Source: a virus
Length of the DNA stretch: 64,000 bases
Strand: one strand, 5' to 3'
IMG/VR virus record: IMGVR_UViG_3300049002_000006
Span: 1 to 64,000 of that record
Shown here: piece after piece, positions 1-59,945 of the stretch
Layout of the letters: the number at the start of each line of letters is the position of its first letter
How positions within the stretch are numbered: the first letter of the stretch is position 1
Translations under genes and position numbers: made by a program
The notes under the pieces: model-generated
The model's input: only the letters and a program-made list of their open reading frames with translations
Told to the model about the DNA's origin: nothing
Database searches by the model: none

Positions 1-795
1 GTCGTGTTCGGTCATGATGACTTCGCCGGTTTCTTTGTCTCGACGGACGTAGAACATCTTGCCCCCCGTGTCTTTATCGACGACCACGCCCATCGCCGGT
101 CGTAGTTCTTTCGGCGGTCTAGGCATGACCCGCCCGCCCCGCCCTGGGATCTTCTTCGTGAACGTCGGTCTCGGACTTAGGAAGCCGAACACGCCGAGGG
201 ACTTCGACGCGATCCTGGTCTCGAATTCGGCGTCGGCGTCTACGTCGTGGACGTATTCTCGGCTGTCGTATTGGACGTTGTCTGCCCTGGCCCGATACGA
301 GTAGGCGGTCGATACGCCCGTCTTGGTCAGGCCGTCGAAGAAGTGCATGAGGTCGTCAGTCAGTCGGCATTGGACGATCAGATAGCCGGGGCACGTCTGG
401 ACGTTCTGCCGCCGGAACGAGCCGTCTTTCTGGAGGACGTTGTCGGGCATCTTCGGCACGATGATTCGGTCGATCTTGAGCCCGGCGGCCTTTGCTTTCT
501 TCAGGATCTGTTGCCGGATGGCCGCGTTGTTTCGGGTGTCTACTGCGAGGACGTAGAACGGATTTGTTCGGAGCATGACGAGTGCGTCTTTCGCTTGATA
601 GAGGACTGTTCGTGCCCCCTTCGGGACAGGAAGTTTCGCCAACGCCTCTTCGAGGATCTTGCTGGCCGTCGCCGATGCTGGTTGTCTTGTGATGGTCTGA
701 ATCGCTGCCGGCTTCGTCGTGTTTTGGGTCTTCGTTTTCTTCGGCAGTGCCGACAGGAAGTCGCCGAGGATTTTGCTGGCCGTCGCGTTCATCAT
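1..795 (-). CDS. NusG-like (NGN domain) transcription factor, 3' end cut by window edge
   Basis: An uninterrupted minus-strand frame of 265 codons runs from ATG at 795 off the left edge. Residues about 78-165 resemble the NusG N-terminal (NGN) domain: NPFYVLAVDTR, then an AxxxxILKKAKAAG helix, a VPK strand, and CPGYLIV at 135-141 in place of the FPGY(V/L)FV signature. NusG and its paralogs (RfaH, LoaP) bind RNA polymerase and promote processive transcription or antitermination. A KOW domain is not evident in the visible C-terminal part. The N-terminus holds two copies of an ATASKIL-type motif (residues about 4-18 and 42-56). The start has a GAGAGGGG ribosome site 8 nt upstream. It is promoter-distal to the small minus-strand genes but has its own candidate promoter. 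The family call is from motif resemblance only. Confidence 0.72.
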   Translation of the reverse strand, partial: MMNATASKILGDFLSALPKKTKTQNTTKPAAIQTITRQPASATASKILEEALAKLPVPKGARTVLYQAKDALVMLRTNPFYVLAVDTRNNAAIRQQILKKAKAAGLKIDRIIVPKMPDNVLQKDGSFRRQNVQTCPGYLIVQCRLTDDLMHFFDGLTKTGVSTAYSYRARADNVQYDSREYVHDVDADAEFETRIASKSLGVFGFLSPRPTFTKKIPGRGGRVMPRPPKELRPAMGVVVDKDTGGKMFYVRRDKETGEVIMTEHD

Positions 796-3042: not shown

Positions 3043-3092
3043 CGTCTAGAATCGCGTTTAACGGCCGATCTATTGCCGGCTGTAGAAAATCA
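3043..3092 (-). promoter_or_regulatory. Conserved 50-bp upstream element, copy 1
   Basis: Three blocks (plus-strand spelling cgtctaga at 3043, acggccgatc at 3061, aaaatca at 3086) recur at 52591, 52609 and 52634 with the same 18- and 25-nt offsets. Each copy sits just upstream of a minus-strand gene start. In the transcribed orientation it reads TGATTTT-N15-GATCGGCCGT-N10-TCTAGACG. It may be a phage promoter or activator site. Confidence 0.7.
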
Positions 3093-3161
3093 CGCCCCGG
3101 GCAAGATCGGCCCGCAAACGCCGTTTAATCGTGACTGGCGGGGCATTGTTCTCAGCCCCGC
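3063..3161 (-). promoter_or_regulatory. Structured non-coding leader
   Basis: The gap between genes at 3032 and 3182 holds two inverted repeats: GGCCGATCT (3063-3071) with AGATCGGCC (3104-3112), and GCGGGGC (3138-3144) with GCCCCGC (3155-3161). Neither is followed by a U-tract on the minus strand. They could form a leader RNA fold or separate the two halves of the operon. Confidence 0.45.
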
Positions 3162-4065: not shown

Positions 4066-4096
4066 CGTCAGGCCCCTTTCGAGTCTAGATCGGCCC

Positions 4097-4132
4097 CACG
4101 CCTCGCCAGAGAACAGCCCGGCAAGAGGCGTG
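4097..4132 (-). promoter_or_regulatory. Leader hairpin upstream of the leftward operon
   Basis: CACGCCTC (4097-4104) and GAGGCGTG (4125-4132) pair perfectly around a 20-nt loop that has a further GCC/GGC pairing. It falls in the 5' leader of the minus-strand operon. No U-tract follows, so it is more likely a regulatory or stabilising RNA hairpin than a terminator. Confidence 0.4.
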
Positions 4133-4283
4133 AGAATTCGCCGATATCGAGATACTGTACTGTCGGCGGGCCGGCCTCGCAACGTTATTCGCGCCTTTTT
4201 GTCGATGTTTTTTGGCCGCTTCCAGGAGCCCGTCCACTGATAATTACTGTTTCACTCGTTAGTATGATATGGCTTATACCTAC

Positions 4284-4311
4284 TTGACACGCCCACATCC
4301 TCTGTTATAAC
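4284..4311 (+). promoter_or_regulatory. Strong sigma70-type promoter for the terminase operon
   Basis: TTGACA (4284-4289), 16-bp spacer, TATAAC (4306-4311). Transcription would start near 4318 and reach the AAGGAGGAGG ribosome site of the first terminase gene. The same TATAAC -10 recurs at 28548 and 35614. Confidence 0.85.
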
Positions 4312-4340
4312 ATGCCCCCGCCCACTAAAAGGAGGAGGCA

Positions 4341-5138
4341 GTGTCGAAGACGAGAACCATAAAAGTCGCAGTCGTGTGGCAGGACGAGTTCTACCTGCGG
4401 GCCTATCAGTTAGCCCGCAGTGGGATGGGGAAAATGCAAATCGCCCGGGCGATCGGAGTCAGCTGGCCGACGTTCAAGAAGTGGCTGGACAGGAAGGAAG
4501 CTCTCAGGACCGCTATCAAGGACGGATCAGATCCCATCCACGAGGGCAAGCCGCAGCCCTTCCAAGACTACGTTTACGGCAACATGGACCCACACACGAA
4601 AGCAGTGTACGATAAGGTCCGGTCGTACATCGACCCGCAGACGGCTCCTAGGAATGCGGTAGTGATGCTGGAAGAGTTGATGCGGGACCAGGGCGACAAG
4701 ATGCGAAAGTCCTTATTTCTGCACTTCTACGCCAGTCACGGATTCAATCCGTCTGCCGCCTGCCACGCGGTTAATATCAAGAAGAAGACCCTAGAAAGGT
4801 GGTGCATCACCGATCAGGAGTTTTACGAGATGATGGAGGAGATGCGGTGGCATATGAAGAACTTCTGCCGGGGCCGGGCGATGGACTTGGTGGCCGCCGG
4901 GGACGCAAGTATGACCAAGTTCATGCTGAGTAATCTGGATGAGGACTTCAGGAAGACGCCGAGTACGACCAACATCAACATTCAAGGCCGGATCGAACAC
5001 GAGCATAACCTGGTGGATGTGGATAAGATTCCACTCAAGATCAGGATGCAGATGATGGACGCAATCGAGAACGAGCGAGACGGGGACGAAGACGAGATTC
5101 TGGACGCCGAATACGAGGTAAAGGCAGATGGAAATTAG
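4341..5138 (+). CDS. terS: Terminase small subunit (putative)
   Basis: GTG start at 4341 after AAGGAGGAGG. Residues about 18-50 form a helix-turn-helix (LARSGMGKMQIARAIGVS followed by a KKWL recognition helix), and a second similar motif near 118-140 includes AACHAVNIKKKTLERW. Small terminase subunits bind the packaging site and regulate the large subunit. Position directly ahead of the large terminase and the two HTH-like segments support the role. The acidic C-terminal tail probably contacts the large subunit. The assignment rests on context and HTH pattern, not on a family match. Confidence 0.7.
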   Translation: MSKTRTIKVAVVWQDEFYLRAYQLARSGMGKMQIARAIGVSWPTFKKWLDRKEALRTAIKDGSDPIHEGKPQPFQDYVYGNMDPHTKAVYDKVRSYIDPQTAPRNAVVMLEELMRDQGDKMRKSLFLHFYASHGFNPSAACHAVNIKKKTLERWCITDQEFYEMMEEMRWHMKNFCRGRAMDLVAAGDASMTKFMLSNLDEDFRKTPSTTNINIQGRIEHEHNLVDVDKIPLKIRMQMMDAIENERDGDEDEILDAEYEVKADGN

Positions 5139-5168: not shown

Positions 5169-5459
5169 ATGAGTTTGGTGCGAATCGAAGCTGAATGGTT
5201 TAGAAAGGCGTTAGAGAAATCACAAGAACGGATGAAGGTACTTATAGCTCAGGAACTAAAGAAAGCAGGACTTAAGCTGATGGCTGAAGCAAAGGTGACG
5301 TACAACGAGGCTCAGCTACCTGGATCAGACTGGGTGGAGTTAGAAGGACAGTTGCCGATGACAGACGAAGGTAGAAAAATCTTGGAGGAGTGGTTAGACG
5401 AAACGTTGTCGAGCAGGAAGCAAGCCGACGAGCCGGTCATCGTGAAGGAGAAGGAATGA
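5169..5459 (+). CDS. Hypothetical protein between terminase genes (96 aa)
   Basis: Charged helical protein with a good GAGGAGG site. Its TGA overlaps the ATG of the large terminase (ATGA), implying coupled translation, so it may assist packaging. Base composition is more A-rich than its neighbours. No family recognised. Confidence 0.75.
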   Translation: MSLVRIEAEWFRKALEKSQERMKVLIAQELKKAGLKLMAEAKVTYNEAQLPGSDWVELEGQLPMTDEGRKILEEWLDETLSSRKQADEPVIVKEKE

Positions 5460-6976
5460 ATAAGAAGATGGCCGTGGACCGGATTAAACTGATCCGTAGC
5501 ACCACGATGGAGAGCTACTCCCAATTCGTCAAATACTTCTGGCCGTGCGTCTCGGAGGAGAAACTGTGCTGGAACTGGCACATGGAGTATATGTGCAACG
5601 AGACGCAGAGAATCTACGAACGGGTGTTCAAAGGCTTGCCTAAGGAGTACGACGAGGTCACCAATATCAGTCCTGGGACTAGTAAGAGCACCGTAAAGAG
5701 TGTCATGCCCTGCGCGTGGGCATGGACTAGGATGCCCCACTTCAAGATGATCGGGGCATCCTACGCGGAAGAAGTAGCCATCGACCTGAGTATGAAGTGC
5801 CGAGGACTGGTCACACACGACCGCTTCCGAGAAATCTTTCCGGAAATCGTCTTACGAGACGATATGAACAGTAAAGGAAAGTTCGGTAATACGAAAGGTG
5901 GGTGGCGGCTGGCCGCAGGCGTCAAAGGCCGGATTATGGGTCATCATGCTCATGTGATAGTTGTGGACGACCCGCTTAGTCCAGAACAAGGTGAGTCTGA
6001 GTTAGACACGGCTACGGCCAATAGATGGATTAGTAAAACTCTTTCGACCAGAAAGATCGACAAGGCTGTCACACCAATGATCCTTGTGATGCAGAGGATT
6101 CACCATAACGACCCGACTGCTCTATTCCTCAAAAAGAAACGAGTCCGTCATACCTGCATCCCGGCCGAGATAATGGATGGCAAGATTATGGTTCATCCGG
6201 ACCACCTGCGAAAGCACTACGTAGATGGATTGATGGACCCGGTCCGGCTGAGTCGAGAAGTTTTGGATGATTACAAGGCCGAAGGAGACCGCTTCTATAG
6301 CACCCAATTCTTGCAAATGCCGGCCCCCGACGGCGGCGAGATGTTCAAGGTCGATCGGCTCATCAAGCTGACCGAGTACCCGAAGAAGTTCGACAAGCTC
6401 GTCAGGTTCTGGGACAAGGCCGGGACTAAAGGCGGCGGGGCGTACACGGTCGGAACACTCATGGGCATGGTCGAGGACAAACAAACCAGGAGTGCCCGAT
6501 ATTTTGTCCTCGACGTGGTCCGGCGGCAAGTCGATAGTTATTTCCGGGAGAAGTTGATTGAGGACACGGCCCACAGCGACGGCAGGAGTGTAATCGTCGG
6601 CGTCGAGCAGGAGCCGGGCTCAGGCGGGCTGGAGTCGGCACAGAATACGGTCGGCAGACTAGGTCCGCAACGGTTTGTGGTCAAAGTGAGTAAAGTGGAT
6701 GTGTCAACAGGCGGGAAGATCCAACGAGCCGACCCGTTCAGTTCTCAGGTAAACGGTGGGACAGTATACTACCTGCCCGATAAACCCTGGAACGATGCGT
6801 GGCTGGAAGAACTAGAGCATTTTCCGCACAGTCGTACCAAGGACCAGGTAGATAGTGCGTCCGGGGCTTTCGCCCTGTTGGCCAAGAAGAGGCGGCAGGT
6901 CGGCGGTGTCAGGATGAACAGGTCAAGGGTGTCGAGTTTCGCGGCCCGGGTAGTGCCTCAGTACGCCCCCGCGTAA
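5456..6976 (+). CDS. terL: Terminase large subunit
   Basis: 506 residues. ATP-dependent DNA-packaging motor and headful/cos nuclease. A Walker A-like SPGTSKST lies at 72-79 and Walker B VIVVDDP at 167-173, followed by a TL-R coupling segment. The C-terminal half begins near residue 320 with an RFWDKAG segment, then a LDVVRRQ strand and VGVEQEPGS, typical of the RNase H-like nuclease domain of large terminases. Start chosen at 5456 because of the ATGA overlap with the preceding gene. The P-loop departs from the classical GKS/T-type, as is common in terminases. Confidence 0.92.
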   Translation: MNKKMAVDRIKLIRSTTMESYSQFVKYFWPCVSEEKLCWNWHMEYMCNETQRIYERVFKGLPKEYDEVTNISPGTSKSTVKSVMPCAWAWTRMPHFKMIGASYAEEVAIDLSMKCRGLVTHDRFREIFPEIVLRDDMNSKGKFGNTKGGWRLAAGVKGRIMGHHAHVIVVDDPLSPEQGESELDTATANRWISKTLSTRKIDKAVTPMILVMQRIHHNDPTALFLKKKRVRHTCIPAEIMDGKIMVHPDHLRKHYVDGLMDPVRLSREVLDDYKAEGDRFYSTQFLQMPAPDGGEMFKVDRLIKLTEYPKKFDKLVRFWDKAGTKGGGAYTVGTLMGMVEDKQTRSARYFVLDVVRRQVDSYFREKLIEDTAHSDGRSVIVGVEQEPGSGGLESAQNTVGRLGPQRFVVKVSKVDVSTGGKIQRADPFSSQVNGGTVYYLPDKPWNDAWLEELEHFPHSRTKDQVDSASGAFALLAKKRRQVGGVRMNRSRVSSFAARVVPQYAPA

Positions 6977-7307: not shown

Positions 7308-7333
7308 GCCCCGTCCGAAAGGCGGGGCTTTTT
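7308..7333 (+). terminator. Intrinsic terminator of the terminase operon
   Basis: GCCCCG(T)CC stem, GAAA tetraloop, GGCGGGGC (7321-7328), then TTTTT (7329-7333). A textbook rho-independent terminator immediately after the small zinc-ribbon gene. Confidence 0.9.
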
Positions 7334-7359
7334 AACCTACTCTCATAATGGTTTAGACC

Positions 7360-52590: not shown

Positions 52591-52640
52591 CGTCTAGAAC
52601 GGCTTTAAACGGCCGATCATACGTCGGCCGGGCAAAATCA
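52591..52640 (-). promoter_or_regulatory. Conserved 50-bp upstream element, copy 2
   Basis: Same blocks as at 3043-3092 (cgtctaga at 52591, acggccgatc at 52609, aaaatca at 52634), with identical offsets. CGGCCGA (52610-52616) and TCGGCCG (52624-52630) also form a 7-bp inverted repeat here, and TATGAT (minus strand, about 52621-52616) could be a -10 box. Candidate shared phage promoter. Confidence 0.7.
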
Positions 52641-52682
52641 TTGTCGCCGTAGCAAAGGCCGGGAAATCGACGTATACGCAAT

Positions 52683-58380: not shown

Positions 58381-58728
58381 TCAGGCCCCAGGAGGCAGTT
58401 CCGTACCAGGAGTCGGAACGTCTTGTTGATCGCCGGCCTTCGCCAAAGGAACAGTTGTCTCTGCCCCTAGCGTGGCAGGAACTTCCGTCGGGACCGGAGG
58501 CGTCACGCTCGCCCTGGCCTGGTCCATCATTGCCGAGAACTTCGCCTCTAGCCGGTTGAAGCATAGCCCGATGTCCTTCACCTTACCCTCGGCCCGGTTG
58601 CTATACAAGCTTTGGGCGATGCCGACGAACTCCTGGCCTGTCCGATAGTTGCCGAACAGCTTTCGCAGGGTATCTACTTCCTTCTGCACGACTTCCAACG
58701 ATTCGATACTGACGGTTGCGTTAATCAT
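58381..58728 (-). CDS. Hypothetical protein (115 aa)
   Basis: Helical N-terminal half (LEVVQKEVDTLRKLFG...) and Pro/Thr/Ala-rich C-terminus. Overlaps the UDG/exonuclease gene by 4 nt. No family recognised. Confidence 0.7.
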   Translation of the reverse strand: MINATVSIESLEVVQKEVDTLRKLFGNYRTGQEFVGIAQSLYSNRAEGKVKDIGLCFNRLEAKFSAMMDQARASVTPPVPTEVPATLGAETTVPLAKAGDQQDVPTPGTELPPGA

Positions 58729-59945
58729 CCGATCTCCTTGAGTTGTTCCTTAGCGACGTGCCACGTCAATAAGGAATCTAGGGCGTTATAACGGAGGACC
58801 GTACTCAGGTCGCATTCCGTTATTCGGTTGAGCCCCGGCCCGGATTCGTCTTTCGGTACCAGGTACGGGGCTACTGTATCGTTGTATTGTGGTTGCCCTA
58901 GTTTCACGAACGCCTGGAATTTCAGGCCACTAACCCCGCGTCTATGGTCTAGGGCGTGGGCGACTAGCATTCCGTCATGTCTCCAGTTGTTGACGAACTT
59001 GCCCCATTGAAACCTGGTCCATAAATCTTCGTGTTTCGTGTTCCAACCGATCTTCGGGCGAGGCCCTAAAACGATTTCCTTCGCGGCTTCGATCACGGGG
59101 CCGACGAAAGGGCAAGCGACAGACGAAAGGCCGTCGGAAACGCTTATAGAGAAGATGCGGCTATGGACGTGCGGCACTAAAGAGCAAGTCTCATAGTCGA
59201 AGGATAAAGACCGTTTATTCGCGTGCATCTTTCGTAGTAATGCCGCCCCTTCGGTCGGGGCTATTTCGACCACGCATCTAGCGTCCAAGTCATCGACTGG
59301 TTCTTTATGTGGCCGTCCGTTTAACTCGAAAGCCGCTTTCAGGTGCTTGTCGAATAGAATACCTTCTATCGGTTTGTTCTCGTCTTCGTTCCGGTTGACA
59401 TGACTCGGATGAAACGTCGGGCAGACCCAAGTGTTCGGCTTCCGGCAAGGAATCTTCCAGCCGGCCCACTTCGTGATGCCCCCGACGTCCTTATCGAACA
59501 GCCAACCGATTACCGACTCGACGGCCCTGGCCCCGAGGACGATAATTGTTGACGGCTTTAACTCCTTGATCGTATTGGTCACGTTCGGACGACACCATTC
59601 GATCATTTCGTCCTTGGTGATCTTATTCCGTGGCGGCCTGCACCAAAGACTGTTGATGGTCCAGCAATCCCGCTCCAGGTCGATTTTTAGCTTCCTGAGA
59701 GTCTTATGGAGTCTGGCCCCGGCCGGGGCTCCTGGAAAGAACGGCCGCCCGTGCAAGTCTTCCTGTTCTCCGGGGGCCTCGCCGACGATCAGGACACCCC
59801 GCTTGCCCTTACCGAAGACCTTCATCTTCGGCGTCCGACACCCGCTCTTGTCGAGCCGGCACATGGAGCACTTCGGGCTGATCGGGTCCGGCGGCCGAAA
59901 CATCTCTAAGGCGGTCCGCGAGAACAGAGGACTTTCTAACATCAC
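58725..59945 (-). CDS. Family 4-type uracil-DNA glycosylase fused to a 3'-5' exonuclease (406 aa)
   Basis: GTG 59945 in a GTGA junction (ATG at 59942 also possible). Residues 1-215: UDG with GEAPGEQED (55-63), four Fe-S cysteines (C26, C29, C102, C118) and HPSH (179-182). Residues about 245-406: DEDDh/y-type exonuclease with FDYET (D250, E252), WNTKHED and YNALDS. A UDG and proofreading-type exonuclease in one chain is unusual and would couple uracil removal to end-processing near the polymerase, which lacks its own proofreading domain. Confidence 0.88.
   Translation of the reverse strand: MMLESPLFSRTALEMFRPPDPISPKCSMCRLDKSGCRTPKMKVFGKGKRGVLIVGEAPGEQEDLHGRPFFPGAPAGARLHKTLRKLKIDLERDCWTINSLWCRPPRNKITKDEMIEWCRPNVTNTIKELKPSTIIVLGARAVESVIGWLFDKDVGGITKWAGWKIPCRKPNTWVCPTFHPSHVNRNEDENKPIEGILFDKHLKAAFELNGRPHKEPVDDLDARCVVEIAPTEGAALLRKMHANKRSLSFDYETCSLVPHVHSRIFSISVSDGLSSVACPFVGPVIEAAKEIVLGPRPKIGWNTKHEDLWTRFQWGKFVNNWRHDGMLVAHALDHRRGVSGLKFQAFVKLGQPQYNDTVAPYLVPKDESGPGLNRITECDLSTVLRYNALDSLLTWHVAKEQLKEIG

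Follow-up and report, generated by a model that had tools for sequence, protein, structure and literature searches.

The gene across the circular junction

The window, which is the whole 64,000-base stretch of DNA that was analysed, covers bases 1-64,000 of the 82,146-b record IMGVR_UViG_3300049002_000006, and the source is an uncultured phage of about 82 kb. A minus-strand frame without a stop codon runs from an ATG at 795 to window base 1, and is thus open to the left edge as the earlier note had claimed. Window positions 1-127 are an exact terminal repeat of the final 127 bases of the record; the assembly is therefore circular, with 82,019 unique bases, and its apparent left edge comes only from linearisation. 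Because of this 127-bp repeat, the ORF running off window base 1 resumes at the far end of the record, and the joined NusG-like product has 360 aa and the C-terminal end ...GRQVKVQANKLQLEIVK*. The gene and its leader consist of the following parts:

1-795, minus: first 265 codons of the nusG-like gene (open frame, joined translation, TIGR00922 match)
record 82,019-81,732, minus: remainder of the gene across the circular junction, stop at 81,732
559-795, minus: N-terminal extension, residues 1-79, with two copies of ATASKIL-x6-7-LP (sequence)
334-558, minus: NGN core, residues 80-154, signature CPGYLIV (PF02357, TIGR00922, alignments)
1-333, minus: NGN insertion, about residues 155-271, approximately 115-120 aa (alignment with related phage and bacterial NusGs)
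past the junction and wholly outside the window, minus: last NGN helix WKPVPIETYEAAIILIRG, residues 272-289 (alignment)
past the junction and wholly outside the window, minus: KOW domain, about residues 303-358 (alignment)
796-975, minus: nusG leader, with a hairpin of 13 perfectly paired bp (884-919) and a 32-bp unit repeated in tandem 2.4 times (899-975), both upstream of the start codon

The record is classed among linear-type virus records despite its terminal repeat. Terminal repeats were also present in three related records (72 bp in G008, 86 bp in G027 and 90 bp in G046), and all four of these records look like circular or complete assemblies.

Family identity and domain anatomy

Compared to NCBIfam, the joined protein matched TIGR00922 (nusG) with an E-value of 4.6e-11 in two stretches, the NGN domain (residues 81-154) and the KOW near the C-terminus. 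The score, 42.9 bits, is below the curated cut-off of 135.7 bits, and by its sequence the 360-aa protein is a diverged NusG relative, not the housekeeping equivalog. The leftward extension in search of a KOW domain, as had been proposed in the earlier note, was run, and the gene ends past the junction in a KOW, the second TIGR00922 stretch, and not in the C-terminus of another family. Pfam NusG matched residues 80-153 with an E-value of 2.9e-5 for this record alone and 0.0022 over all Pfam; the PF02357 score of the joined protein (18.9 of 22.2 bits) is just below the cut-off, which the NusGs of two relatives exceed (29.4 and 44 bits). A NusG_myco match (2.6e-5) supports the C-terminal KOW, and phrog_6386 'transcription antiterminator' matched the KOW part only (residues 294-357, E 2.8e-7). 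With a bacterial NusG profile the joined protein scored 28.0 bits. The top score among 5,000 shuffled versions of it was 8.7 bits, and the remaining frames of the record came nowhere near 28.0. A profile built from the four related phage proteins matched solved NusG structures with an E-value of 3e-28, covering both NGN and KOW, and hhalign against other NusGs gave 99.5%. Structure prediction of the NusG of the related phage G010 alone, and of the window fragment together with two relatives, gave pLDDT values of 34-36, too low to be usable. The claim of NGN-like residues at 78-165, including CPGYLIV, is borne out by Pfam NusG, TIGR00922 and the four-protein profile. Both an NGN domain and a C-terminal KOW domain are thus recognised, and there is hardly any doubt that the predicted product belongs to the NusG family, as a complete but highly diverged phage version.

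As in housekeeping bacterial NusG (TIGR00922, E. coli), NGN is followed by KOW, and the PGY signature, the final NGN helix P-x-P-I/L-x-x-E and the G-R loop of KOW are present. In contrast, the identity to housekeeping NusG is about 20%, and the phage-encoded protein carries an N-terminal extension of about 79 aa, for which no family match was obtained, and the insertion of about 115-120 aa in NGN. The insertion follows the PGY strand/helix and precedes the last NGN helix, with its final few residues past the junction. In E. coli NusG, the KOW loop I164-F165-G166 contacts Rho (PMC7593976). All four comparison NusGs of our alignment have IFG, whereas the loop is L-M-G in our phage, with Phe165 replaced by Met, and L-L-G, I-L-G and L-V-G in the three relatives. 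The Phe is thus missing in all four phage NusGs, and since the loop aromatic is absent in every one of them, we infer a loss of Rho binding. The region facing RNA polymerase (RNAP) is also altered, as the W of the WY motif (PFY) and the first F of FPGY (CPGY) are changed, and therefore RNAP binding is not guaranteed. The KOW retains a hydrophobic loop and GR that could still bind S10.

Related phages and genome setting

Direct searches with the protein itself gave no close relatives in IMG/VR or phage records, and nothing was found with it in 43 TerL-relative records; the relatives were reached with the terminase (TerL) and the DNA polymerase (PolA) as bait. NusG was found by TIGR00922 in G005 (IMGVR_UViG_3300036045_000002, 80,085 b, E 1.6e-15), G010 (IMGVR_UViG_3300015371_000790, 17,057 b, E 4.8e-19) and G061 (IMGVR_UViG_3300049847_000321, 77,099 b, E 2.6e-21), the TerLs of which are about 50% identical to ours. 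G005 and our phage have 42 proteins in common, collinear across both arms. In the TerL tree, the four NusG phages and one fragmentary contig form a clade with a support of 96/97; this fifth contig (L027, 59 kb) shows no NusG, but it breaks off at TerL and may lack the part with the early arm. Among the related records of at least 58 kb NusG was found only in G005 and G061 and was undetectable in about 15 of 17. The gene marks a sub-lineage, and is not essential to this lifestyle, because so many related phages do without it. A weak match in G087 was false, as it falls in an SNF2-type helicase, and one in G101 with the same length and score was likewise judged false.

All four NusGs occupy the same place in collinear genomes and have the altered KOW loop together with extensions or insertions, but their N-termini, insertion sites and lengths differ. 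By eye, two Cys4 zinc ribbons precede NGN in G005 (L018 2244-3527, minus) and one in G061 (L290 946-2112, plus), whereas the N-terminus of G010 has a short helical stretch; the zinc-ribbon extension of G005 had no Pfam match above cut-off. G005 carries an extra domain in the beta-hairpin position, unlike our insertion site, while G061 has a shorter NGN insertion at our site and shares with it the motif WKP-x3-E-x2-EAA-x2-L-x-R.

The resemblance to NusG could in principle be due to chance or to a bacterial contaminant, as the Pfam score of the protein itself is under the curated cut-off. This explanation, to which we give a practically negligible probability, is refuted by the profile and synteny results: the TIGR00922 match, hhalign, the profile of four and the shuffle control all speak against it, as do the syntenic relatives in three independent phage contigs and the circularity of the phage record.

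The genome is organised in two arms that diverge from an intergenic region near the left end of the window, and the following features define the setting of nusG:

4067-4340, no strand: divergent intergenic region, start of the leftward and rightward arms (gene map)
approximately 4097-4132, leftward leader: hairpin with an 8-bp stem (fold, strong stem)
4284-4313, rightward: promoter-like TTGACA-18-TAACAT in the divergent region
4341-5138, plus: TerS-like, first rightward gene (synteny with G005, G008, G010, G027 and G061 beside TerL)
5456-6976, plus: terminase large subunit TerL
7308-7336, plus: intrinsic terminator GCCCCGTCCGAAAGGCGGGGC TTTTT, about 3 kb into the rightward arm
record 79,023-79,529 (L002 15023-15529), minus: sigma70 region-2-like gene about 2.3 kb downstream of nusG (PF04542 relatives)

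The rightward arm (about 38 kb) holds TerS, TerL, portal, capsid and tail genes, and the leftward arm (about 44 kb) holds nusG and the replication and nucleotide genes, continuing past the junction to about 42.6 kb. Our nusG starts about 3.3 kb into the leftward arm; measured from the divergent region or TerS start, it is the first leftward gene in G010 and lies at 1.4 kb in G061 and about 5.4 kb in G005. In all four phages it belongs to the early genes, points away from TerS/TerL and precedes the sigma-region-2-like gene, which is collinear downstream of nusG in each. The gene has evidently been passed down in a small group of phages with this two-arm layout, and has stayed close to where the early leftward arm begins. 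The sigma-like gene has relatives in five related phages, all six aligned members match PF04542, and their profile matched sigma factors with an E-value of 1e-6; the product is likely a phage sigma factor, as judged from these profiles. A search for a multisubunit RNAP beta gene found none, and the gene map has no unassigned ORF of phage-RNAP size, the only ORFs above 700 aa being a tail-like protein and the presumed tape measure; therefore the host RNAP is the likely partner.

No tRNAs were found, and TerL matches in MAGs were spread over several phyla and do not single out a host. Window 58725-59942 encodes a 405-aa protein with a uracil-DNA glycosylase superfamily domain (PF03167, E 1.5e-19) in its N-terminal half, and the rest was read as a putative polymerase exonuclease part. 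At record 64351-67001, putative genes for FolE, radical-SAM QueE and QueD were recognised by eye, as for 7-deazaguanine DNA modification.

A candidate role in transcription

We consider it probable that the protein is an early elongation or antitermination factor that acts on the host RNAP in place of host NusG and allows read-through of what would be two very long phage transcripts without recruiting Rho. The phage NusG would be made early in infection, and its NGN domain would bind the elongating host RNAP in competition with host NusG, raising processivity and read-through over the leftward and rightward arms. As the KOW lacks the aromatic Rho-contact residue, it would probably not recruit Rho, and phage transcripts may so be shielded from Rho-dependent termination, while initiation would fall to the sigma-region-2-like protein encoded downstream on this arm. 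The terminator at 7308 is a candidate target of antitermination; no strong intrinsic terminators were found in the leftward arm, which counts against this role. Processive antitermination, which the earlier note had proposed, is plausible and the best explanation, but like RNAP binding and competition with host NusG it is inferred.

The same early position and altered KOW loop would be expected also if the protein mainly served host take-over, displacing host NusG and uncoupling host transcription from Rho and the ribosome, with phage processivity being secondary. NusG paralogs generally compete for one RNAP site (PMC7819879), which agrees with this idea. However, these data also fit antitermination, nothing indicates inhibition as such, and with its hydrophobic loop and GR the KOW could still bind S10, so we regard host take-over as unlikely. 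It is very unlikely that the protein has left RNAP for another role, for example as a structural or RNA-binding KOW barrel. Its very fast divergence, the changed RNAP-facing signature residues and the large NGN insertion would suit such a role, but the early-gene place near the sigma-like gene is conserved and NGN is kept in all four phages.

Another explanation is an antiterminator of the LoaP/RfaH type, loaded by a phage hairpin (4097 or 884) or by palindromes of the leftward arm. LoaP and RfaH likewise combine NGN with KOW and serve long operons, and in RfaH the Rho contacts are lost or changed. The strong hairpins without U-tracts noted earlier at 4097, 7031, 21382, 49978 and 57676 are all real stems, and the leader hairpins at 4097 and 884 have in common the 11-mer CGCCTCTTGCC, the only motif that hairpins share. 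In addition, a palindromic element of about 66-70 nt (CCGATCTAGT...GGGGCGTGATTTTNTACG...ACTAGATCGG) occurs in seven copies, all of them in intergenic gaps of the leftward arm and usually just upstream of a -10-like box and AAAGGAAAC:

record 3057-3123, 52607-52666, 64250-64315, 67037-67096, 70731-70800, 73511-73579 and 75260-75329: palindrome copies, both core orientations

The element is perhaps a promoter/operator or a loading element. LoaP targets a hairpin with a UNCG loop (PMC12691694), whereas no UNCG tetraloop is seen in the folds predicted for the two leader hairpins (884-919 and 4097-4132). The suggestion that the five hairpins are loading signals as with LoaP found no support, as they have no common sequence and show no UNCG loop in their predicted folds, and the protein is not a member of either family by score: LoaP (NF033641) gave 24.1 of 125 bits, and RfaH (TIGR01955) gave 14.2 of 144.5 bits for a C-terminal piece, both short of the cut-off, with no RfaH match to the whole joined protein. 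The palindromes stand in both orientations and were not present in five related phages, those with NusG included. No conserved loading element was found, Rfam gave no match in the window, and nothing ties the hairpins to the NusG protein. A LoaP/RfaH-type mode is thus not a likely one here, while the hairpin and repeat in the nusG leader are a candidate site of attenuation or autoregulation.

The statement that phage NusGs are rare holds only in part, as 46 phage records hold one, although several of these appear to be host DNA. The 'nusG' of Microcystis PhiMa05, for example, was rejected as a phage gene, since it is part of a secE-nusG-rplK-rplA cluster and so resembles host sequence. Recorded phage NusGs come from cyanophages, Bacillus phage G ('NusG-like transcription antitermination factor'), three rhizobial phages and huge phages. 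Named examples of the PHROG 6386 type (S-CRM01 g104, phage G gp582, Rhizobium PPF1, Sinorhizobium phi3LM21 and Mesorhizobium vB_MseS-P1) resemble ours as phage-encoded NGN and KOW proteins, and those of phi3LM21 and vB_MseS-P1 also lie near terminase genes. In contrast to our 360 aa, proteins of this type have about 180-230 aa and no long NGN insertion; the rhizobial genes are on the terminase strand upstream of the terminase genes, whereas ours is in the divergent early arm, and the compared cyanophage and huge-phage NusGs keep the FGR loop that is altered in ours. Phage control of elongation is usually exerted by small unrelated proteins (N, Q, p7) or by RNA, and lambda N/Q and Xp10 p7 (PMC4513864 for p7) are unrelated to phage NusG in sequence and architecture. 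They would share with it the purpose of read-through in phage operons with host RNAP. Phage-encoded NusGs are not treated in the passages found of the NusG-family literature, including PMC7819879, and in the literature searched there was no functional study of the phage NusGs annotated in databases. Phage NusGs as such are already known, but a NusG of this predicted form and setting was not known before, and it adds a tractable case to those annotated in databases. A clade that retains a NusG of its own in the early region, without the Rho-contact residue and with large extra modules, offers a natural test of what in the universal NusG/Spt5 factor serves processivity and what serves termination.

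Beyond the role as an early elongation factor on host RNAP, the clade might have built an elongation system of its own, in which NusGs with exchangeable N-terminal modules and NGN insertions read phage-specific loading elements in DNA or RNA and are paired with the phage sigma. This we regard as distinctly unlikely, but if true, host RNAP would be reprogrammed at both initiation and elongation by a phage sigma and a modular NusG. The fused zinc ribbons of G005 and G061 formally recall the separate zinc protein Spt4 beside Spt5.
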